DNA of 64,000 nucleotides from Streptomyces sp. SCUT-3 (GTDB lineage: Bacteria > Actinomycetota > Actinomycetes > Streptomycetales > Streptomycetaceae), in the NCBI RefSeq assembly GCF_014083985.1, contig NZ_CP046907.1:4812501-4876500 (forward strand), read 5' to 3'. The position numbers and the translations under genes were made by a program. This document shows, piece by piece, positions 18,557 through 34,792 of the stretch. Numbering within the stretch: position 1 is the first letter of the stretch; each line of letters opens with the position of its first letter. The notes beneath the pieces were generated by a model, which worked only from the letters and a program-made list of their open reading frames with translations, searched no databases and was not told where the DNA came from.

Positions 18557-19996
18557 ATGCGCCGAGCAAAGATCGTCTGCACCCTCGGGCCCGCCACCGG
18601 CACCTACGACCGGATCAGAGCCCTGGTCGACGCGGGAATGGACGTCGCCCGACTCAACATGAGCCACGGCACCCACGCCGAACACAGCACCCGCTACGAC
18701 CACGTCCGTACGGCCTCCGACGAAACCGGACGCAGCGTCGGTGTCCTCGCCGACCTCCAGGGCCCCAAGATCCGACTCGGCACCTTCGCCGAAGGGCCCG
18801 TCCTCCTCGAGGCCGGCGACCCCTTCACCATCAGCTGCGAGAACGTCCCCGGCGACCGTCACCGCTGCAGCACCACCTACCCCAAGCTCTCCACCGACGT
18901 CGCCCCCGGCGACCACATCCTCGTCGACGACGGCCGCGTCACCCTCGAGGTCACCCGCATCGACGGCCCCCGCGTCCACACCACCGTCCTGGACGGCGGC
19001 ATCCTCTCCGACCACAAGGCGATCAACCTCCCCGGCACCACCACCACCTCCCTCCCCGCCCTCTCCGACAAGGACGTCCGCGACCTGAGGTGGGCCCTGC
19101 GCCGGGGCGCCGACCTCGTCGCCCTCTCCCACGTCCGCAACGCCCACGACATCGACCACGTCCACCGCGTCATGGACGAGGAGGGCCGCCGGCTCCCCGT
19201 CATCGCCAAGATCGAGAAGCCCCAGGCCGTCGAAAACCTCCCCGCCGTCGTCGACGCCTTCGACGGCATCATGATCGCCAGGGGCGACCTCGGCGTCGAA
19301 ACACCCCTCGAGGACGTCCCCCACATCCAGAAACGGGCCGTCAAACTCGCCAGGCGCAACGCCAAACCCGTCATCGTCGCCACCCAGATGCTCGACTCCA
19401 TGGTCGACGCCTCCCGCCCCACCCGCGCCGAGGCCTCCGACGTCGCCAACGCCGTCATGGACGGCGCCGACGCGCTCATGCTCTCCGGCGAGACCGGCAT
19501 CGGCGCCCACCCCGTCGAAGCCGTCGAGACCATGGCCCGCATCATCACCGCCGTCGAGGAGGAGACCCTCGCCGCCGGCCTCGCCCCCCTCGCCGCCCGC
19601 GACAAGCCCCGCACCCAGGGAGGGGCCGTCGCCCGCGCCGCCGCCGAGATGGGCGACTTCCTCCACGCCACCCACCTCGTCGCCTTCACCGCCAGCGGCG
19701 ACACGGCCCGCCGACTCGCCCGCTACCGCCCGCCCGTCCCCGTCCTCGCCTTCACCCCCGAACCCGCCACCCGCTCCCAGCTCTCCCTCACCTGGGGCAC
19801 CGAGACCTTCCTCGGGCCCGTCGCCGCCAACACCGACGAGATGGTCGGCCAGGTCGACGAACAACTCCTGCGCATCGGCCGCTGCAAGCCCGGCGACACC
19901 GTCATCATCACCGCCGGCTCGCCCCCCGGGACCCCGGGCAGCACCAACCTCGTCCGCGTCCACCACATCGGCGAACGCGCCACCCGCCGCGCCTGA
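18557..19996 (+). CDS. pyk: Pyruvate kinase
   Basis: Last step of glycolysis: phosphoenolpyruvate plus ADP to pyruvate plus ATP. The 479-residue length is normal. Visible features are RAKIVCTLGPAT, LNMSHGTH, the active-site Lys in IAKIEKPQAVENL, the metal-binding MIARGDLGVE, and ATQMLDSM; the B domain lies at about 70-170, and the C-terminal domain (about 345-479) is the usual effector-binding fold. The ATG lacks a ribosome site and is preceded by a well-placed TAGGCT, so the mRNA is probably leaderless. It converges on the LAGLIDADG-type gene. Confidence 0.96.
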   Translation: MRRAKIVCTLGPATGTYDRIRALVDAGMDVARLNMSHGTHAEHSTRYDHVRTASDETGRSVGVLADLQGPKIRLGTFAEGPVLLEAGDPFTISCENVPGDRHRCSTTYPKLSTDVAPGDHILVDDGRVTLEVTRIDGPRVHTTVLDGGILSDHKAINLPGTTTTSLPALSDKDVRDLRWALRRGADLVALSHVRNAHDIDHVHRVMDEEGRRLPVIAKIEKPQAVENLPAVVDAFDGIMIARGDLGVETPLEDVPHIQKRAVKLARRNAKPVIVATQMLDSMVDASRPTRAEASDVANAVMDGADALMLSGETGIGAHPVEAVETMARIITAVEEETLAAGLAPLAARDKPRTQGGAVARAAAEMGDFLHATHLVAFTASGDTARRLARYRPPVPVLAFTPEPATRSQLSLTWGTETFLGPVAANTDEMVGQVDEQLLRIGRCKPGDTVIITAGSPPGTPGSTNLVRVHHIGERATRRA

Positions 19997-20096: not shown

Positions 20097-20888
20097 TCAG
20101 TACTTGGCCCCCACGTGCAGGTCCATCAACGCCACCGACTCCCGCCGCGCCACGGAGATGTTGCGCGCCCCCGTGCGCTTCCAGGCGACGCCCAGCCGGT
20201 CCAGCGTCGCGGTGCACAGCCGCATGATGTCCTCCGACGCATTGGTGAAGAAGTACCGCGGGTACTCGTAGTGCCTGGGGCCGTCGGCGAGGTGCCGGAC
20301 GATCCGGTTGGTCGTGCGGCAGCCGTCGGAGTGGAACAGCCCGCGGACCAGTTCCCAGGGGTGGGAGTCGGCCATGTCCTGCTGCCAGGGCTCCAGCCTG
20401 ATGCGCCGGTGGTGCTTCCTGCCCGGACCGTGCTGGGGGAAGTGGCAGACCAGGTGCTTGGAGTAGACCTTGACGTAGGTGCAGCCGGGGGCCCGCACAC
20501 GGCACACCCTGTTGCCCGGCCAGACCGCCTGCACGGCGCCCGCGGCCGCGTCGATGAGCCCGGGCCAGCGGTTGTCGCACGCGATGCGCAGGCACTGCAC
20601 CCCCCTGCGGTGGGCGCTGATGCAACCGTCGCCGAGGTAGAGGCCGAGAAGGTAGACGTATTCGGCGGCGGGGGCGGGCGGAGACGGTGTTTCGGCACAC
20701 AGGCCGCACGACGTCCCGCTTCTGCGGGGCAACGGCTCGATGCGCACCGTCCATTCCCGGATCGCGGAGCGGGATATGCCGGTGTGTCTGCTGACCGAGT
20801 TGAGGCTGCGGCCGTCGGAGAGGAGGGCGAGGGCGTGCCTGCGCGTTTCCAGGTCGTACACGGGCACGAGAATGGCCCGGGCCTTCAC
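20097..20888 (-). CDS. HTH plus LAGLIDADG-type DNA-binding/endonuclease-like protein
   Basis: A 263-residue protein. Residues 15-50 form a helix-turn-helix of the transposase/resolvase type (ALLSDGRSLNSVSRHTGISR). A CxxC pair (61-64) follows. Two LAGLIDADG-like helices lie at 79-88 (YLLGLYLGDG) and 180-189 (LVRGLFHSDG), each ending in the acidic residue used for metal-dependent cleavage, with a basic beta region between them. A single-chain homing-endonuclease fold, active or reused as a regulator, is the best reading. The GTG start is weakly supported (no clear ribosome site). It stands between pyk and a tRNA gene; tRNA genes are common homing sites, but no intron or intein is seen. Confidence 0.75.
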   Translation of the reverse strand: MKARAILVPVYDLETRRHALALLSDGRSLNSVSRHTGISRSAIREWTVRIEPLPRRSGTSCGLCAETPSPPAPAAEYVYLLGLYLGDGCISAHRRGVQCLRIACDNRWPGLIDAAAGAVQAVWPGNRVCRVRAPGCTYVKVYSKHLVCHFPQHGPGRKHHRRIRLEPWQQDMADSHPWELVRGLFHSDGCRTTNRIVRHLADGPRHYEYPRYFFTNASEDIMRLCTATLDRLGVAWKRTGARNISVARRESVALMDLHVGAKY

Positions 20889-20970: not shown

Positions 20971-21043
20971 TGCCCCGGGTGGGATTCGAACCCACACTGA
21001 ATACTGTTTGAGAGTATCGCCTCTGCCGTTGGGCTACCGGGGC
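20971..21043 (-). tRNA. tRNA-Leu(CAA) with a short variable loop
   Basis: A complete cloverleaf of 73 bases reads on the minus strand: acceptor GCCCCGG/CCGGGGC, a three-pair D stem with D loop AACGGCAGA, anticodon stem ATACT/AGTAT with loop CTCAAAC (anticodon CAA at 21010-21008), variable loop TCAGT and T arm GTGGG-TTCGAAT-CCCAC, with A as discriminator base. CCA is not encoded; a T-rich stretch follows. CAA reads the Leu codon UUG, but the five-base variable loop is class I, while ordinary bacterial tRNA-Leu has a long variable arm. The D loop resembles tRNA-Gln. I recall a short leuX tRNA beside pdtaR in M. tuberculosis, which would make this a conserved oddity. Confidence 0.88.
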
Positions 21044-21140
21044 TCCTTTGAAACGAAGGATAGCGGAGACCCTTCGTGCCTCAAACATACAGGAGCTGGG
21101 TACTCTCGTGGGGCACCCCTGCCCAGAAGCGAGGAGCACA

Positions 21141-21782
21141 GTGAGCACCGCTGACGCGCCCGATGAGCCCGCTGCCACCGACGAGCAGCAGCACGTCCCC
21201 CCGATGACCACCCGGGTCGTCATCGCCGAGGACGAAGCACTGATCCGCCTCGATCTGAAAGAGATGCTCGAGGAGGAGGGGTACTCCGTGGTCGGCGAGG
21301 CCGGTGACGGCGAGACCGCGGTCCGGCTCGCGGAGGAGCACCGCCCCGACCTGGTGATCCTGGACGTGAAGATGCCGGTGCTCGACGGCATCTCGGCGGC
21401 GGAGCGGATCGCGGGCGCGAGCATCGCACCGGTGCTGATGCTGACGGCGTTCTCCCAGCGCGAGCTGGTGGAGCGGGCGCGGGACGCCGGTGCGATGGCG
21501 TACCTGGTGAAGCCGTTCAACAAGAGCGACCTGGTGCCGGCGATCGAGATGGCGGTGTCGCGGTACACCGAGCTGCGGGCGCTGGAGCGGGAGGTCGCGG
21601 ACCTGGCGCAGCGGCTGGAGACCCGCAAGCTGGTGGACCGGGCGAAGAGCGTGCTGCAGACGAAGTACGGGCTGACCGAGCCCGCGGCGTTCCGCTGGAT
21701 CCAGAAGACGTCGATGGACCGGCGGATGTCGATGCAGGCGGTGGCGCAGGCCGTGATCGAAGAGGTGGCGGAGGAGAAGTAG
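21141..21782 (+). CDS. pdtaR: ANTAR-domain response regulator (PdtaR)
   Basis: A 213-residue two-component regulator that acts on RNA. The receiver domain (about 25-140) has DE at 31-32, phospho-acceptor Asp75 in LVILDVKMP and Lys in YLVKPF. A coiled linker leads to an ANTAR domain (about 150-205: RKLVDRAKSVLQTKYGLTEPAAFRWIQKTSMDRRMSM), which binds paired hairpins to prevent transcription termination. The family partner is the histidine kinase PdtaS, not encoded here. The GTG at 21141 follows GAGGAG. Residues 1-22 are an acidic, low-complexity extension; an ATG at codon 22 (21204) is a possible alternative start. Confidence 0.93.
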   Translation: MSTADAPDEPAATDEQQHVPPMTTRVVIAEDEALIRLDLKEMLEEEGYSVVGEAGDGETAVRLAEEHRPDLVILDVKMPVLDGISAAERIAGASIAPVLMLTAFSQRELVERARDAGAMAYLVKPFNKSDLVPAIEMAVSRYTELRALEREVADLAQRLETRKLVDRAKSVLQTKYGLTEPAAFRWIQKTSMDRRMSMQAVAQAVIEEVAEEK

Positions 21783-21897: not shown

Positions 21898-22614
21898 TCA
21901 GTCCTCGCCGAGGTAGGCCTTGCGGACGGACTCGTCGTGGAGGAGGTCGGCTCCGGTGCCGGAGAGGACGATCCTCCCGGTCTCCATGACGTGTCCGGTG
22001 TCGGCCAGGGAGAGGGCGGCCTGGGCGTTCTGCTCGACGAGCAGGATGGTGGTGCCCTGCGCCTTGAGTTCGGCGATGGTGGCCATGATCTTCTGCATCA
22101 TGATCGGGGAGAGGCCCATGGAGGGCTCGTCGAGCATGAGCAGTTTGGGCTGCGACATCAGGGCGCGGCCCATGGCGAGCATCTGCTGCTCGCCGCCGGA
22201 CATGGTTCCCGCGGCCTGCTTGCGGCGTTCCCCGAGGATGGGGAAGAGGTCGTAGGCGCGCTGGATGTCCTTGTTGATGCCGGCGGCGTCCCTGCGGAGG
22301 AAGGCGCCGAGGCGGAGGTTCTCCTCGATGCTGAGGCGGGGGAAGATGTGGCGGCCCTCGGGGGAGTGGGCGAGCCCGAGGGAGACCACCTTGTGGGCGG
22401 GGACGGACGCGAGGTCCTGCCCGTCGAAGAGGATCTTCCCGGAGAGGGGCTTGAGGAGCCCGGAGAGGGTGCGCAGGGTGGTGGTCTTGCCCGCGCCGTT
22501 GGTGCCGATGAGGGTGACGACCTGGCCGGCCTCGACGCTGAAGCTGATGCCCTTGACGGCTTCGATCTTGCCGTAGGCGACTCGGAGGTCCTCGACCTCG
22601 AGCAGTGCGGTCAT
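21898..22614 (-). CDS. livF: Branched-chain amino acid ABC transporter ATP-binding protein LivF
   Basis: One of two ATPases of the Leu/Ile/Val (HAAT-type) importer. The 238-residue sequence has Walker A GTNGAGKTT, signature SGGEQQ, Walker B LLMLDEPS, the LivF-specific HSPEGRHIFPRLSIEENL region and the switch His replaced as usual by VEQNAQ. The ATG overlaps the livG stop by four bases (ATGA), so it is the last gene of livKHMGF. Substrate could also be amides or urea in some members; branched-chain amino acids are the default. Confidence 0.95.
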   Translation of the reverse strand: MTALLEVEDLRVAYGKIEAVKGISFSVEAGQVVTLIGTNGAGKTTTLRTLSGLLKPLSGKILFDGQDLASVPAHKVVSLGLAHSPEGRHIFPRLSIEENLRLGAFLRRDAAGINKDIQRAYDLFPILGERRKQAAGTMSGGEQQMLAMGRALMSQPKLLMLDEPSMGLSPIMMQKIMATIAELKAQGTTILLVEQNAQAALSLADTGHVMETGRIVLSGTGADLLHDESVRKAYLGED

Positions 22615-23507
22615 CGCTGCTCCTCCTCGTCGGTGGTGGTGCCGGCCGCGGGGGTGCCGGTGCGGGTGGCGGCTTCGGCCGCTTCGACCTCGGCGGCCTC
22701 GGCCTGTCCGGGGTCGTCCTCCATGGGGGTGCCGATGTAGGCGGCGATGACGCGTTCGTCGCTCTGGACGGTGTCGGGGGTGCCCTCGACGAGCTTCTCG
22801 CCCTGGACGAGGACGGCGACGCGGTCGCAGAGGTTGAAGATGAACCGCATGTCGTGCTCGATGACGAGGACGGCGATGCCGCGGTCGCGGATGGCGAAGA
22901 CGAGTTCCTCGGTGGCGCGGGTCTCCTGCGGGTTCATGCCGGCGGTGGGCTCGTCGAGGAGGAGCAGGCCGGGGTCGCTGGCGAGGGCGCGGGCGATCTC
23001 GAGCTTGCGCTGCTCGCCGTAGGGGAGGTTGCGGGAGAGGTGGTCGGCCTTGTGGGCGAGGCCGGTGAACTCGAGGAGTTCCATGGCCTTGTCGCGGGCG
23101 GCCTTCTCGGCCCGCTTGAACCCGGGGCCGCGCAGGAGGGCGGAGAAGAGGCCCTCCTTGGTGCGGGTGTGTCCGCCGACGAGGACGTTCTCCAGCACGG
23201 TCATGTTGGGGAACAGCCGGATGTTCTGGAAGGTGCGGGCGATGCCGGCGGCGGTGACGAGGTGGGGCTTGGGGGGCAGGACCTTGCCCCGGTAGGTGAC
23301 GCTGCCTTCGGTGGGCACGTAGAGGCCGGTGAGGCAGTTGAAGAAGGTGGTCTTGCCGGCTCCGTTGGGGCCGATGAGGCCGACGATCTCTCCGGGGTTG
23401 ACGGTGAGTTCGACGTTGCGGACGGCGGTGAGGCCGCCGAACCGCATGATGACGCCGGAGGCGTGCAGGAGGGGTGCGGTGGTGTCGGTGCTCATGGGGG
23501 TGTTCAC
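22611..23507 (-). CDS. livG: Branched-chain amino acid ABC transporter ATP-binding protein LivG
   Basis: The second ATPase of the importer: Walker A GPNGAGKTT, the Q-loop region ARTFQNIRLFPNMTVLENV, the signature in LPYGEQRKLEIARAL (a normal LivG variant of LSGGQ), Walker B LLLLDEPTAGMNP and the switch in VIEHDM. The GTG at 23507 overlaps the livM stop as GTGA and has AAGG seven bases before it; an ATG four codons later (23495) is an alternative start. At 298 residues it is longer than usual because of a C-terminal Glu/Ala/Thr tail of about 35 residues. Confidence 0.93.
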   Translation of the reverse strand: MNTPMSTDTTAPLLHASGVIMRFGGLTAVRNVELTVNPGEIVGLIGPNGAGKTTFFNCLTGLYVPTEGSVTYRGKVLPPKPHLVTAAGIARTFQNIRLFPNMTVLENVLVGGHTRTKEGLFSALLRGPGFKRAEKAARDKAMELLEFTGLAHKADHLSRNLPYGEQRKLEIARALASDPGLLLLDEPTAGMNPQETRATEELVFAIRDRGIAVLVIEHDMRFIFNLCDRVAVLVQGEKLVEGTPDTVQSDERVIAAYIGTPMEDDPGQAEAAEVEAAEAATRTGTPAAGTTTDEEEQR

Positions 23508-25219
23508 GCCCCTGCCTTGGTGAGGCCGGCGGTCTCGTCCGGCGTCTTCTGGTCGGGGACGGTGGGCGGTGCGGTGTCCTCGTGGAACTCGAGCTGCTTG
23601 CGCCGGTCGGCGATGAGGCCCTCGGGGCGGAACCGCATGAGCAGGACGAGGGCCAGGCCGAAGAGGAGCAGCTGGTAGTCCTGCATGAACTGGAGCTTGG
23701 CCGGGATGAGGTAGAGCAGGGAGGCGCCGAGGAGGGGGCCGCTGATGGTGCCCATGCCGCCGAGGATGACGGCGGCGAGGAGGAAGGCGCTGTTGGGGGG
23801 GACGGGTCCGGCGAACAGGTACTGCTCGGGGACGACGGTGTAGGAGACGTGGGCCTGGACGGTTCCGGCGAGTCCGGCGAGGGCCGCGCCGAGGGCGAAG
23901 GCCATGAGCTTGAGCCGGAAGGTGTTGATGCCCATGGCGGTGGCGGCGGTCTCGTCCTCGCGGATGGCGACCCAGGCGCGTCCGATGCGGGAGTTGTTGG
24001 CGCGGGCGAAGACGAGGACGACGACGGCGGTGAACACCAGCATCAGCAGGTAGTAGTTGGCGAACCTGCCGAGGGTGATGCCGCCGATGTCGTGGGGCTG
24101 CCCGAAGTCGTACCCGAGGATGACGAGGTCGGGGATGTTGGGGACGCCGTTGGGTCCGCCGGTGATGTTGGGGCCGGAGGAGCCGTCCATGTTGTTGACG
24201 GCGATGCGGAAGATCTCGCCGAAGCCGAGGGTGACGATGGCGAGGTAGTCGCCGCGCAGCCGCAGGGTGGGTGCTCCGATGACGACGCCGAAGACCAGGG
24301 AGGCGGTGGCGCCGACGAGGACGGCGGCCCAGAAGGGCAGGTGGACGTCGAAGGGGGAGGCGGGGGAGCCGGAGACGAGGGCCGCGGCGTAGGCGCCGAC
24401 GCCGAGGAAGGCGACGTAGCCGAGGTCGAGGAGTCCGGCGAGGCCGACGACGACGTTCAGGCCGAGGGCGACGGTGGCGAAGATGAGGATGTTGGCCGCG
24501 ACGGAGGTGTACTGGTCGCTGGTCTGGGTGAAGGGGAACGCCGCCGCGGCGGCGAAGGCCGCGCCGACGGTGACGGTGCGGTGCTTGGCGGTGAGGGCGT
24601 TGAGCCTGGCGATGAGCCCGGACTTGCTCAGGGCGGCGGCGGTGAGGCCGACGGTGATCAGGTAGCCGGTGAACAGCTCGCCGTACTCGGTGTCGATGCC
24701 GTAGGTGATGACGTACAGGCCGGCGCCGAAGGCGGCGACGATGATCAGGATCTCGGCCCAGGAGCCCAGTTCGCGGGTGGCCGCGGGGGCGCGGGTGTCG
24801 TCGGGGAGGAGGAACGCCCCGGCGACGGGGACGGCGGAGGCCGCTGCGGCGACCCATGCGCCCGGTTCGAGGTGGACCAGGCCGCCGAGGGTGGCGGCGA
24901 TGGAGACGACGGTGAACCAGGTGGTGCCCAGGCCGGCGAGGGCGCTCAGCCGCAGGGCCTTGGTGGTGCCTGCGGGGGCGAGCCAGCGCAGGCCCTTGAC
25001 GCCGAGGGCGGCCAGCGCGAGGGCGAGGGTGATCAGGCCGGAGGCGAGGGTGAGGAGCTGGAGTCCGCCGGGGTACCCGTAGACGGTGAGGTTTCCGGGG
25101 TAGGCGGAGGTGTAGGTCCAGGCCAGCAGGGTGCTGCCGGCGGTGGCGAGTGCTCCTGCCGCGGTGATGACGCGGGCGGTTCCGGCGGGGACGGCCGGGC
25201 GTCCGGTGGTGGTGTTCAT
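23504..25219 (-). CDS. livM: Branched-chain amino acid ABC transporter permease LivM
   Basis: Membrane subunit of the Liv importer, 571 residues. The conserved permease core begins near residue 230 (VAANILIFATVALGLNVVVGLAGLLDLGYVAF) and contains the ATPase-contact motif GRAWVAIREDETAATAMGI. The first 230 residues hold about six extra hydrophobic segments, making the protein nearly twice the usual LivM length; such N-terminal membrane extensions occur in other actinomycete LivM proteins. The ATG at 25219 has GAGG just upstream; a GTG overlapping the livH stop (25228) is possible. It overlaps livG by four bases. Confidence 0.92.
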   Translation of the reverse strand: MNTTTGRPAVPAGTARVITAAGALATAGSTLLAWTYTSAYPGNLTVYGYPGGLQLLTLASGLITLALALAALGVKGLRWLAPAGTTKALRLSALAGLGTTWFTVVSIAATLGGLVHLEPGAWVAAAASAVPVAGAFLLPDDTRAPAATRELGSWAEILIIVAAFGAGLYVITYGIDTEYGELFTGYLITVGLTAAALSKSGLIARLNALTAKHRTVTVGAAFAAAAAFPFTQTSDQYTSVAANILIFATVALGLNVVVGLAGLLDLGYVAFLGVGAYAAALVSGSPASPFDVHLPFWAAVLVGATASLVFGVVIGAPTLRLRGDYLAIVTLGFGEIFRIAVNNMDGSSGPNITGGPNGVPNIPDLVILGYDFGQPHDIGGITLGRFANYYLLMLVFTAVVVLVFARANNSRIGRAWVAIREDETAATAMGINTFRLKLMAFALGAALAGLAGTVQAHVSYTVVPEQYLFAGPVPPNSAFLLAAVILGGMGTISGPLLGASLLYLIPAKLQFMQDYQLLLFGLALVLLMRFRPEGLIADRRKQLEFHEDTAPPTVPDQKTPDETAGLTKAGA

Positions 25220-25224
25220 CTGCC

Positions 25225-26154
25225 TCACGCCCTGTCCGTGACGCGCTCGCCGAGGAGGCCCTGCGGCCTGACCAGGAGCACGACGATGAGGAGTACGAAG
25301 GCCCACACGTTGGCCCAGGCGCCGCCGCCGAGCTGCGACATGCCGGGGATGTCCTGGATGTAGGCGGTGGCGAGGGCTTCGGCGAGGCCGAGGACGACTC
25401 CGCCGAGCATGGCGCCGTAGATGTTGCCGATGCCGCCGAGGACGGCCGCGGTGAAGGCCTTGAGGCCGGCGATGAAGCCCATCATGAAGTCGACCTGGCC
25501 GTAGCGCAGTCCGTGGGCGACGGCGGCGACGGCGGCGAAGGCGCCGCCGATGGCGAAGGCGGTGACGATGATGCGGTCGGTGTTGATGCCCATGAGCTTG
25601 GCGGTGTCGGGGTCCTGCGCGGTGGCCTGCATGGCGCGGCCGGTGCGGGTCTTGGACACGAACATGCCGAGGACGATCATGCACAGCGGGGCGGCGAGCA
25701 GGAGGAACAGGTCGGCGGGCTGGAGGCGGATGCCGATGACGGAGAAGGCGTCGCCGTCGAACTGCGGGAAGGAGCGGGCCTTCTTGGCGTCGGGGTAGAA
25801 GGCCCAGACGATCTGCTGCAGGGCGATGGACAGGCCGATGGCGGTGATGAGGGGCGCCAGTCGGGGGCCGCCGCGCAGCGGGCGGTAGGCGAAACGTTCC
25901 GCTGCGGTGGCGGTGGCGACGGAGGCCAGGGCTCCGCCGACGAGCATGACGGGTACCGCGATCCACATGGATGTTCCGGACGGCAGGAACAGGAATGTGG
26001 TGAGGGCGCCGAAGCCCCCGATCATGAATATCTCGCCGTGGGCGAAGTTGATGAGCTGGACGATGCCGTAGACCATGGTGTACCCGATGGCGATGAGGCC
26101 GTACATCGCGCCGAGTATCAGGCCGTTGGCCAGCTGTTGCGGCAGTTCGTGCAC
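25225..26154 (-). CDS. livH: Branched-chain amino acid ABC transporter permease LivH
   Basis: Membrane subunit of the Liv importer, 309 residues, normal length. It begins LANGLILGAMYGLIAIGYTMVYGIVQLINFAHGEIFMIG, the LivH hallmark, and has the ATPase-contact motif GRAMQATAQDPDTAKLMGI followed by four helices. It is separated from livK by a stable hairpin and from livM by five bases, so H, M, G and F should be translated from one message. Confidence 0.95.
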   Translation of the reverse strand: MHELPQQLANGLILGAMYGLIAIGYTMVYGIVQLINFAHGEIFMIGGFGALTTFLFLPSGTSMWIAVPVMLVGGALASVATATAAERFAYRPLRGGPRLAPLITAIGLSIALQQIVWAFYPDAKKARSFPQFDGDAFSVIGIRLQPADLFLLLAAPLCMIVLGMFVSKTRTGRAMQATAQDPDTAKLMGINTDRIIVTAFAIGGAFAAVAAVAHGLRYGQVDFMMGFIAGLKAFTAAVLGGIGNIYGAMLGGVVLGLAEALATAYIQDIPGMSQLGGGAWANVWAFVLLIVVLLVRPQGLLGERVTDRA

Positions 26155-26187
26155 CGCAGGCCTCCGATGAGTTTGTCGGACGGTATG

Positions 26188-26220
26188 CCGCGCGGGGGCG
26201 CTGGTGGCGCCCCCGCGCGG
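26188..26220 (-). terminator. Intra-operon hairpin between livK and livH
   Basis: Fourteen perfect GC pairs around a five-base loop sit between the livK stop and the livH start on the minus strand. It probably stabilises the livK message or partly terminates it, giving more binding protein than permease. Confidence 0.6.
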
Positions 26221-26244
26221 TTGGGTGGTGTGGGCGGTCCGGGA

Positions 26245-27477
26245 TCAGCCGGTGTAGGTGCCGCTCTCGACGGACACCCACTCGCCGTCCTTGACCTGGT
26301 AGACGGTCAGCTGCTTGTTGGTGGTGTCGCCGAAGTCGTCGTAGGAGACCTTGCCGGTGACGCCGTCGAAGGAGACGTCGCTCATGGCCTCGACGACCTT
26401 GGAGCGGGCGTCCTCGGGGAGCTTGCCGTCGTTGGCCTCGACGACCGCCTTGACGGCCTCGATGATCGACCAGGCGGCGTCGTAGGAGTACCCGCCGTAG
26501 GCGGCGTAGGGGTCCTTGTAGCCGGCGGCGTTGTAGCTCTCGATGAACTCCTTGGCGGAGGGGAGCTTCTCGACGGGCTGGCCGACGGAGGTGGCGTAGT
26601 CGCCGTCGGCGTTGTTGTTGGCGAGCTTGATGAACTCGGGGTCGTAGATGCCGTCGCCGCCCATGACCGGGATGTCGGAGCCGGCCTTCTTGATCTGGTC
26701 GGACAGCGGGCCGGCCTCGGGGTACTGGCCGCCGTAGTAGACGGAGTCGGCCTTGGCGGCCTTGACCTTGTCGGCGATGGCGGAGAAGTCCTTCTCGCCG
26801 ACGTTGAGGCGGTCGGTGCCGACGACCTTGCCGCCGAGGCGCTCGAACTCCTCGGCGAAGATCTTGGCGAGGCCGGCGCCGTAGGTCTGCTTGTCGTCGA
26901 TGACGAAGACCTTCTTCTTCTTCGCCGTCTCGTAGTAGTACTTGGCGGCGAAGCGGCCCTGGATGATGTCCGTGGTGGCCGTGCGGAAGTAGGTCTTGAA
27001 GGGGCGCTTGAGGTCGCCGTCCGCCCACTTGCTGCCCTGGCTGAGGTCGGGGCTGGTGTTGGCGGGGGAGACCTGGGTGAGGCCCGCGTCGGCGAAGACC
27101 TTCTGCATGGACTGGGAGACGCCGGAGTTCAGGGGGCCGACGACGCCGAGGACGTCGGAGTCGGCGACGAGCGTGGTGGCGTTCTGCTGGCCGGAGGAGG
27201 GCTTGGCCTGGTCGTCCAGCGCCTTGATCTCGAAGGTGACGCCGGGGACTTCCTTGTTCTTGTTGGCCGTCTTGACGGCCAGGTCCGCGGAGTTCTTGAT
27301 GCCCTGGCCCAGGGCGGACAGGTCACCGGTCAGGGGGGCGTCCACGCCGATGACGACGGTGGTGCCCCCGCCTTCCGAGCCGCCACCGGCGGAGTCGTCA
27401 CGGGACCCGCAGGCCGTGAGGGTGAGGGCTCCGGTGGTGAGGATGCTGGTGAGAACGAGCAAGGAACGGTGACGCAC
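26245..27477 (-). CDS. livK: Branched-chain amino acid-binding lipoprotein LivK
   Basis: Substrate-binding lipoprotein of the Liv importer, 410 residues. The GTG at 27477 is preceded by AAGGA and gives a lipoprotein signal peptide: basic MRHR, a hydrophobic stretch, and the lipobox LTAC with Cys23 as the Lgt target. After a Gly/Ser linker comes a type I periplasmic-binding fold (VVIGVDAPLTGDLSALGQGIKN; VVGPLNSGVSQSMQKVFADAGL; VFVIDDKQTYGAGLA). Being first in the operon and followed by a hairpin fits its need for high expression. Which amino acid it binds cannot be read from sequence. Confidence 0.94.
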   Translation of the reverse strand: MRHRSLLVLTSILTTGALTLTACGSRDDSAGGGSEGGGTTVVIGVDAPLTGDLSALGQGIKNSADLAVKTANKNKEVPGVTFEIKALDDQAKPSSGQQNATTLVADSDVLGVVGPLNSGVSQSMQKVFADAGLTQVSPANTSPDLSQGSKWADGDLKRPFKTYFRTATTDIIQGRFAAKYYYETAKKKKVFVIDDKQTYGAGLAKIFAEEFERLGGKVVGTDRLNVGEKDFSAIADKVKAAKADSVYYGGQYPEAGPLSDQIKKAGSDIPVMGGDGIYDPEFIKLANNNADGDYATSVGQPVEKLPSAKEFIESYNAAGYKDPYAAYGGYSYDAAWSIIEAVKAVVEANDGKLPEDARSKVVEAMSDVSFDGVTGKVSYDDFGDTTNKQLTVYQVKDGEWVSVESGTYTG

Positions 27478-28037
27478 GATCAGTCCTTTCCCAGGGCGCG
27501 GCTTCCTCCCATTGAGGTGCCGAGTCGCGCGCTTGTACCGAAAGGTTGGTCGATCCTTCGGCGCGGTGACTGGCGGTGACTCTAGGGGCGGGGCGGCCGG
27601 TCGGACAGAGGGGGACCGATGATGTGACTGTCTTGTTATGGCCGGTATTGGAGGTAGTGCTTCCGGATGGTCGGGGAAGAGCGCCTCGTTCGGTTCAACT
27701 TCCTTGATCCACAAGGGAGTTTGCAGTTCGGGCATCGGTCGGCGGCCGGGGATCCGGATGCGTGGTACACGCACCGGATGTGAGGTCTTTCGAGGTCACG
27801 CGCGTAGATTCCGCCCGGCGTCCTCCGGGACCCCCGCATTGCAGAAATGTTACACACCGTTACGGCGGCGGGTCGTGGCACCCCGACGGCCGGCCGTCCG
27901 GGGCCCCTCCGGGACCCGGCCGGAACCCGGTCGGGCCCTTCCCCGCCCGCCCTTCCCCGCCCGCCGGTCCGCGTCCGCTTCCGCCTGCCGGGTCCTGGAA
28001 CGACGCCGCCCCGCACGGCGTCCGGCGCGGGCCGGGG

Positions 28038-33884: not shown

Positions 33885-34792
33885 CCGTCCGCCGCGCCGG
33901 CCGCCGGGGGCCCGTCCCGACGGCCGGCGCGGGCCCCCGGCGGCAGGGCCCGGCCCGCCCGCACCCGCGCCGCCCGCACCCGTGCCGCCCGCACCCGCGC
34001 CGCCCGCACCCGTGCCGCAGCGGCCAGGAGCAGCAGCCCCGCCGCCAGGCCCGCACCGGCCCCGAACATCGCCGTCGGCACGAAGTCCGTCGTCCTCGCG
34101 CCGTCGCCCAGCACGGCGGCGTAGCGCACGCACCGGTGCACCGCCCCGGCGGCCGCGCACCCCAGGACCAGCACCCGGGCCGCGGCACGGCCCCACGCCG
34201 TGGCGGGCGCGGCCCCCGGCGGCAGCGGCCCGTCCGGCGCCCGCCGCACCGCGCTCGCGCACCACGCCCCGAGCAGCGCCAGCGCCAGGGCCGACGACCC
34301 GTACTGCACCACCAGGTACGCGGGAACGCCCGCCACCACCGTGTCCAGCCCCGGCACCAGCCGCACGCCCCAGCGCCCCGGGTGCGTGAAGGAGTCCCAC
34401 AGCACGTGCGAGGCCGCCCCCAGCACCGCCGAGAACCAGAACCACGCCGCGGCCGCCACGGGCGGCCGGCCGCGCAGGGGCCGGCCGTGCAGCACCGCGT
34501 ACGCGCGCCCGGCCCACCGGCGCGACAGCAGCGCGGCCACCGGCCCGCGCAGGGCGAGCCACACCCCCACCAGCGCCGCCGCCACCAGCGGGTCCACCAG
34601 CACCGTGCCCCAGGGGGTGTGCGTCACCTGCCCGTGCACGAACAGCCCGCCCGCCGCCGAGGCGGCGAAGTACGGCACGTCCGGGGCGAACGACCCGGCG
34701 ACCAGGGCCGAGGCCACCAGCGGCCCCCGTCCCGCGCCGTCGCGCCGCACCAGCGGCAGCACCGCCGCCGCATGACTCGCAGTGAAAGGCAT
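33815..34792 (-). CDS. DUF4184-family membrane protein with a read-through-like tail
   Basis: Starts MPFTASHAAAVLPL, the DUF4184 hallmark, with AGSFAPDVPYF, a VLWDSFTH motif and about six membrane helices to near residue 270. His/Asp residues in the N-terminal motifs suggest a metal site like that of YdjM-type hydrolases, but the function is unknown. The last 55 residues do not look like a membrane protein: an RVRAA repeat made by 15-base DNA repeats, then a Gly/Ala/Pro stretch that crosses the polA terminator and overlaps the polA 3' end by 70 bases in antisense. The ATG at 34792 has GAAAGG-like complement nearby but a weak ribosome site. Confidence 0.8.
   Translation of the reverse strand: MPFTASHAAAVLPLVRRDGAGRGPLVASALVAGSFAPDVPYFAASAAGGLFVHGQVTHTPWGTVLVDPLVAAALVGVWLALRGPVAALLSRRWAGRAYAVLHGRPLRGRPPVAAAAWFWFSAVLGAASHVLWDSFTHPGRWGVRLVPGLDTVVAGVPAYLVVQYGSSALALALLGAWCASAVRRAPDGPLPPGAAPATAWGRAAARVLVLGCAAAGAVHRCVRYAAVLGDGARTTDFVPTAMFGAGAGLAAGLLLLAAAARVRAARVRAARVRAARVRAGRALPPGARAGRRDGPPAAGAADGQWAADSQSGPTPTETSSGARSG
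33900..33944 (+). terminator. Terminator after polA
   Basis: Fifteen perfect pairs (GCCGCCGGGGGCCCG with its complement) around a 15-base loop that can form a smaller hairpin. It lies inside the tail of the opposing DUF4184 gene. Confidence 0.65.
33956..34015. repeat. Four 15-base tandem repeats in the DUF4184 tail
   Basis: Four copies of CGCCCGCACCCG(c/t)GC alternate C and T at one position, so the array can also be read as two 30-base units. On the minus strand they encode RVRAA repeats. Confidence 0.85.

Follow-up and report, generated by a model that had tools for sequence, protein, structure and literature searches.

A leucine tRNA without the long variable arm in Streptomyces sp. SCUT-3: its family, its probable decoding role and its alternation with the class II form at one locus

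The stretch of 64,000 nucleotides (nt) of Streptomyces sp. SCUT-3 analysed here (contig NZ_CP046907.1, positions 4,812,501 to 4,876,500; termed the window) encodes a leucine transfer RNA (tRNA) with the anticodon CAA, tRNA-Leu(CAA), which has a class I body, i.e. it lacks the long variable arm that is taught as class-defining for bacterial leucine tRNAs. It is a real and conserved tRNA, neither an oddity nor a pseudogene, it is the only tRNA with the anticodon CAA in this genome, and it belongs to a family of class I (short-arm) leucine tRNAs found across the Actinomycetota and in large phages. With a probability of roughly 0.87, it works as an ordinary leucine elongator tRNA for UUG codons; we infer its expression, its charging by leucyl-tRNA synthetase (LeuRS) and its decoding of UUG from the features described below. 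An earlier note, made from the sequence alone, had already recognised a leucine-anticodon tRNA with CAA, A73 and a class I body; the extent of the family over a phylum and its phages, the members with other leucine anticodons and the repeated class swaps at a single locus go beyond that note.

The tRNA and its family

20971 to 21043, minus strand: tRNA-Leu(CAA) with a class I body (ARAGORN; RF00005; family covariance model R1)

The gene belongs to the Rfam family RF00005, which it matches over its full length with 58.2 bits (E 5.7e-10; gathering threshold 29), so that the fold passed the covariance-model check proposed in the earlier note; independently of Rfam, ARAGORN predicts a complete tRNA with the anticodon CAA on the minus strand at the same positions. 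The sequence, GCCCCGG UA GCCC AACGGCAGA GGC G AUACU CUCAAAC AGUAU UCAGU GUGGG UUCGAAU CCCAC CCGGGGC A, forms a 7-base-pair (bp) acceptor stem, a 3-bp D stem with a C13.A22 mismatch, a 5-bp anticodon stem and a T arm, the discriminator base is A73, and CCA is not encoded. The variable loop, UCAGU, has indeed the five bases counted before, whereas class II genes at this locus and in this genome have 13-17 nt there, and it is shorter than the arm of about 10 nt or more of a canonical class II tRNA-Leu. The D arm had been called Gln-like; its loop (AA-n-GGCAGA) does resemble that of tRNA-Gln(UUG), but it resembles those of the class II tRNA-Leu, tRNA-Asn and tRNA-Lys species of the same genome equally well.

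In BLAST searches, 39 of 61 related genomes had a match to tRNA-Leu(CAA); the 30 loci that were fetched all have the anticodon CAA. Within an alignment of 21 distinct class I sequences, standard pairs account for 98.6% of the pair cells and two-sided changes occur at 15 of 21 pairs, a value reached by none of 500 shuffled controls. All stems covary, including the 15-48 Levitt pair of the elbow (A-U in 19/21, G-C in 2/21), A73 and GG (G18G19) are invariant, A20a is nearly so, and the consensus of the five-base variable loop is usually NCAGU. A covariance model built from these members (R1) scores tRNA-Leu(CAA) with 95.9 bits, compared with 62.7 bits for the next tRNA here, a tRNA-Asn.

In a search with the family pattern, members with the anticodons CAA, UAA and UAG were found in named genomes of Gordonia, Nocardia, Rhodococcus, Mycobacterium, Corynebacterium and Bifidobacterium; further named genera with class I members include Pseudonocardia, Micromonospora, Salinispora and Streptomyces. 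A few members come from other phyla, in metagenome assemblies. Phages carrying class I tRNA-Leu genes have hosts belonging to Lactobacillus, Synechococcus, Myxococcus, Sinorhizobium, Gordonia, Streptomyces and Mycobacterium. The anticodons of the family are thus CAA, UAA, UAG and, rarely, GAG, the last one being represented by Mycobacterium phage Darko (L349). In this phage, the class I GAG and CAA genes are located inside a tRNA array, as are three class I tRNA-Leu genes (UAG, UAA, CAA) of Lactobacillus phage Bacchae (L344), and the class I CAA and UAA genes of a Chloroflexaceae metagenome contig (L277), on which class II GAG and CAG genes are found as well.

Probable leucine identity and decoding of UUG

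According to the whole-genome tRNA list, strain SCUT-3 possesses class II tRNA-Leu genes for CAG, GAG (two) and UAA (bldA) and class I genes for CAA and UAG. A normal class II CAA gene, for which the earlier note had suggested looking among the leucine tRNA genes, is absent from this list, and BLAST with the CAG gene matches only CAG and GAG genes. The second class I species, tRNA-Leu(UAG), is encoded outside the window (L086, C1:3965302-3965375), comprises 75 nt with the loop GUGUC and has near relatives in just two other sampled genomes (G014 and G016); one further gene (L112) resembles a chimera between the two class I forms, UAG and CAA. Six Streptomyces genomes tabulated previously have one Leu(CAA) gene each, and a comment on its shape was not found in the paper containing this tRNA table (PMC4932002).

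In Escherichia coli, leucine identity is determined by A73, A15-U48, G18G19 and A20a, and both the anticodon and the long arm are dispensable (PMC9976931). All of these determinants are retained in tRNA-Leu(CAA), the long arm alone being gone. LeuRS would accept the short-arm tRNA because A73 and the elbow between D-loop and T-loop (A15-U48, G18G19, A20a) are kept, identity residing there and not in the arm or the anticodon, and the charged tRNA would deliver leucine to UUG codons. The genome contains one LeuRS above the family cut-off and shows no sign of an additional LeuRS reserved for class I tRNAs. UUG is rare, as the earlier note had stated (1.76 per 1000 codons in the conserved genes of the window), and where genes of the window have a UUG codon, leucine makes up 98% of the residues aligned to it in six relatives (9/9 conserved columns); for CUA, 14/15 columns are leucine. 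Of the options raised in that note, acceptance by LeuRS therefore appears to be the best supported one: the determinants are kept, a single LeuRS is present, UUG columns are leucine, and elsewhere a class II tRNA-Leu(CAA) occupies the same locus (see below).

The two other options fared worse. That another synthetase charges the tRNA and thereby places another amino acid at UUG would fit the class I body, a D arm also seen in Gln, Asn and Lys tRNAs and a mean identity to class II leucine tRNAs (0.62) that is not above the one to Arg or Thr tRNAs. However, CAA offers none of the anticodon determinants of the Gln, Asn, Lys, Met, Val and Trp synthetases (textbook background), the G3-U70 pair for alanyl-tRNA synthetase and the long arm for seryl-tRNA synthetase are missing, and both the leucine in the UUG columns of relatives and the leucine identity of the alternative tRNA at the locus speak against this proposal, which we regard as extremely improbable. 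The remaining option was a regulatory or suppressor-like role. A nonsense suppressor has an anticodon pairing with a stop codon, which CAA does not. A non-translational function, or a pseudogene, with UUG being read by bldA through wobble, would be in line with the rarity of UUG and with a consensus scan around the gene that matched neither a promoter nor a terminator, but it is very improbable in view of the covariation of the stems and the elbow pair, the invariable CAA at the locus, the retained leucine determinants and the class II tRNA-Leu(CAA) filling the same place in relatives. Moreover, mycobacteria-like genomes (family f6) have class I genes for CAA and UAA, and, as no class II pattern matched for either anticodon, the short forms would be the sole readers of the UUA/UUG box there.

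The co-occurrence of the two classes was surveyed by pattern matching for each class in 248 Actinomycetota genomes of at least 95% completeness, the class II counts outside strain SCUT-3 being lower bounds; one class I match, in G069, was unlike a tRNA and was excluded. The class II CAA pattern was present in 1 of 28 genomes with class I CAA versus 162 of 220 other genomes, and the class II UAA pattern in 0 of 41 genomes with class I UAA versus 113 of 207 others (Fisher test about 1e-12, uncorrected for kinship). Reading of the locus in genomes that had seemed, with the first class II pattern, to have neither CAA form yielded missed class II variants and a few class I genes unseen by BLAST.

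Several points weigh against an ordinary role of tRNA-Leu(CAA) in reading UUG. The UUG test comprises 10 codon columns, and bldA (UAA) could in principle read UUG by wobble, so that tRNA-Leu(CAA) is not necessarily essential. Some variants (GGCATACAC D arms) escape the class II patterns used in the survey, and a tree of the tRNA body (68 columns) is too short to place the origin of the class I body. Furthermore, both classes are present in two genomes, G249 and G036. In G249, the extra class II CAA copy is part of an array of 16 tRNAs (L170, G249:C2), which also includes a class II Leu(CAG) and looks like a mobile array; in G036, the extra class II copy adjoins an IS21-like istA/istB pair.

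Alternation of the two classes at one locus

The surroundings of the tRNA gene in the window comprise the following features:

18557 to 19996, plus strand: pyruvate kinase, the outer syntenic marker (PK 2.5e-109), also near many class I and class II loci
20097 to 20888, minus strand: helix-turn-helix (HTH)-LAGLIDADG protein of 263 amino acids, candidate free-standing homing endonuclease, starting 82 nt past the 3' end of the tRNA
21057 to 21084, minus strand: candidate promoter of the tRNA (TTGAGG, 16 nt, TATCCT, ending ~14 nt before the tRNA), a guess made by eye
21204 to 21782, plus strand: ANTAR response regulator, conserved part (Response_reg 7e-29, ANTAR 2e-20), divergent from the tRNA

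The ANTAR regulator gene is thus located ~160 bp from the tRNA on one side, and the HTH-LAGLIDADG gene followed by the pyruvate kinase gene on the other. Next to the regulator gene lies a cluster for a Liv-type branched-chain amino acid ATP-binding cassette transporter (21898-27774, minus strand); the vicinity of leucine uptake genes to a leucine tRNA is probably a coincidence. In a survey of 54 Streptomycetales genomes, tRNA-Leu(CAA) was divergent to the same ANTAR regulator gene in 54 of 54 loci, the distance to the conserved start of the regulator being 129-199 bp. Of these loci, 32 have a class I and 22 a class II tRNA, both forms occur within nine genera, and loci without the class I gene have a class II tRNA-Leu(CAA) at this very site beside the regulator. 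Class I and class II tRNA-Leu(CAA) are therefore alternative alleles of one locus. On a protein tree of the regulator, which is based on ~200 columns and is not a species tree, 19 changes are required to explain the class label. Well-supported branches force 13 of them, which implies at least 13 well-supported class swaps; 19 changes are no fewer than with shuffled labels (mean 17.3). The mixed genera are independent of this tree.

A repeated, independent origin of the class I form by arm loss from the local class II gene was also considered, and the common locus and the overlapping T-arm and D-loop motifs are in its favour. This origin is unlikely, however: distant class I families share A9, C12, C13, the NCAGU loop and often the GCCCCGG acceptor, unlike the local class II genes, and a single clade of all class I rows is not rejected on the tRNA-body tree (p-AU of the approximately unbiased test 0.365). 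Given the body changes shared by distant class I families, a pure deletion of the variable arm from the local class II gene was rejected as the sole explanation.

Relatives of the HTH-LAGLIDADG protein contain the Pfam domains HTH_23 (22/22) and LAGLIDADG_3 (20/22), at E-values up to 0.1 and mostly weak, and the protein has two LAGLIDADG motifs in which Asp87 and Asp188 are invariant in the alignment. An AlphaFold model (pLDDT, the predicted local distance difference test, 88) finds its best PDB matches in I-Tsp061I (2.9e-8), I-AniI (1.1e-6) and I-DmoI, so that motifs, acidic residues and fold all agree with a LAGLIDADG homing endonuclease. The model also matches the transcription factor WhiA (9e-6); not every LAGLIDADG protein need be a nuclease. 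The gene is present in 36 of the 54 loci, in several of them as a fragment, and absent from 18; a present, broken or absent state at a single conserved site is the pattern expected for a homing gene. It is a single-copy gene without a paralogue in the genome, relatives were found neither in the plasmid nor in the phage collections, and the idea of a dispersed LAGLIDADG family was dropped on these grounds.

What is exchanged together with the tRNA can be seen in a close pair of loci, L362 (class I) and L363 (class II), which share ~97% DNA identity up to the tRNA promoter region, diverge across the tRNA and the early portion of the HTH-LAGLIDADG gene, and are again 90-95% identical in the remainder; other pairs of loci show the upstream break at about the same point. 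For 27 loci, the tRNA class needs 5 changes on the LAGLIDADG tree (9.3-9.6 with shuffled labels, 1 of 500 shuffles being as low) versus 11 on the regulator tree (shuffled about 9.3), and the HTH type SLNS..TGIS was found in 8 of 12 classifiable class I loci versus 0 of 14 class II loci (p 3e-4). The tRNA class thus tracks the downstream HTH-LAGLIDADG gene and not the upstream regulator, which suggests a homing-type replacement of a cassette. The tRNA allele and the start of the HTH-LAGLIDADG gene would be exchanged as one unit, most likely by homing-type recombination, with phage-borne copies as a likely outside source. That the LAGLIDADG protein itself drives the swaps is a tentative proposal to which we give somewhat less than even odds, phage integration being either a rival or a partner.

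Slightly less probable is the alternative that prophages or other elements, and not the LAGLIDADG gene, cause the swaps by inserting into the tRNA gene, with their own tRNA remaining in place afterwards. The precedent for it comes from mycobacteria, which have a minimal and non-redundant tRNA set: phage Gaia integrates into tRNA-Leu-CAA of Mycobacterium smegmatis via an 8-bp core and brings its own tRNA-Leu-CAA, i.e. its lysogeny is tRNA-dependent (PMC10865867). Reading of the sequences revealed that the tRNA of Gaia is class II (84 nt) and that the cluster J phage Baka carries a class I 3' half of the host tRNA gene (the attP copy) beside its integrase gene; the 8-mer ATTCAAAA of the class I anticodon loop recurs downstream of the Gaia integrase. 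Judged from the phage copy, the host tRNA-Leu-CAA of M. smegmatis would be class I, and in that case a class I tRNA appears to be substituted by the class II tRNA of Gaia, which would be indirect evidence that the short form, too, serves as a leucine tRNA. The many large phages with class I tRNA-Leu genes also favour integration. On the other hand, the swapped segment ends within the LAGLIDADG gene, the class follows the HTH type of this gene, and the spacing between tRNA and regulator is nearly constant, with no intervening element. More doubtful still is the wider notion of a selfish or arms-race cassette, composed of a tRNA-Leu allele and an HTH-matched predicted LAGLIDADG nuclease, which time and again takes the place of the chromosomal tRNA-Leu(CAA) in actinobacteria. 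One testable idea on what might favour a short arm is that it may allow an escape from enzymes attacking the long arm; for tRNA-Tyr, such an attack has been reported in connection with Septu and retron-Eco7 (PMC13096335).

Some other tRNA-like genes were noticed. A tRNA-Thr(CGT) predicted by ARAGORN at 34421-34496 (minus strand) is probably false, as it lacks Rfam support at the gathering threshold and is absent from the genome-wide tRNA list. Two odd tRNA-like genes of 74-75 nt lie side by side at C1:779166-779524 (L074): one may have the four-base anticodon CUUU (Lys), and the other is a Ser(CGA) lacking the long arm. They cluster with each other in the tRNA tree.

Significance and comparison with known systems

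Members of a whole phylum, e.g. Mycobacterium, Streptomyces and Bifidobacterium, have leucine tRNAs without the long arm. One LeuRS would thus have to accept both shapes, which provides a natural test of leucine identity; the isotype rules of tRNA annotation and the recognition models need revising. The repeated exchange of the sole CAA isoacceptor at one chromosomal site, linked to a homing-type gene and mirrored in phages, makes the carriage of chromosomal tRNA genes by homing elements testable.

With the canonical class II tRNA-Leu(CAA), the class I form shares the anticodon, A73, A14, A15-U48, G18G19, A20a, the mismatched 13-22 position and, in relatives, the locus; the class II tRNA differs by its long arm and by G9, G12 and G/A13, where class I has A9, C12, C13 and the NCAGU loop. 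A CAA anticodon on a body without a long arm is also found in a tRNA-Met with a recent, probably silent single-base change of the anticodon, whereas the class I family is ancient and keeps the leucine elements. Metazoan mitochondrial tRNA-Leu likewise has a short variable loop and is leucylated without a long arm via A73 and A14 (PMC9976931), but it is organellar and served by its own mitochondrial LeuRS, in contrast to a bacterium with one LeuRS for both classes. The sole mention of a short-loop bacterial tRNA-Leu that a search of open-access papers yielded, a passing one, concerns a cluster-encoded tRNA-Leu(TAG) of some mycobacteria, from a presumably phage-derived cluster with HNH homing genes; this is an extra copy beside the normal isoacceptor, and a phylum-wide family, a replacement or an alternation was not described (PMC6582537). 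With regard to the neighbouring gene, the closest parallel is SegB of phage T4, which differs as a phage-encoded GIY-YIG nuclease from the predicted LAGLIDADG homing gene beside one chromosomal tRNA, but which is likewise a free-standing homing nuclease next to tRNA genes and favours the inheritance of its own version of the T4 tRNA region (PMC2988022).
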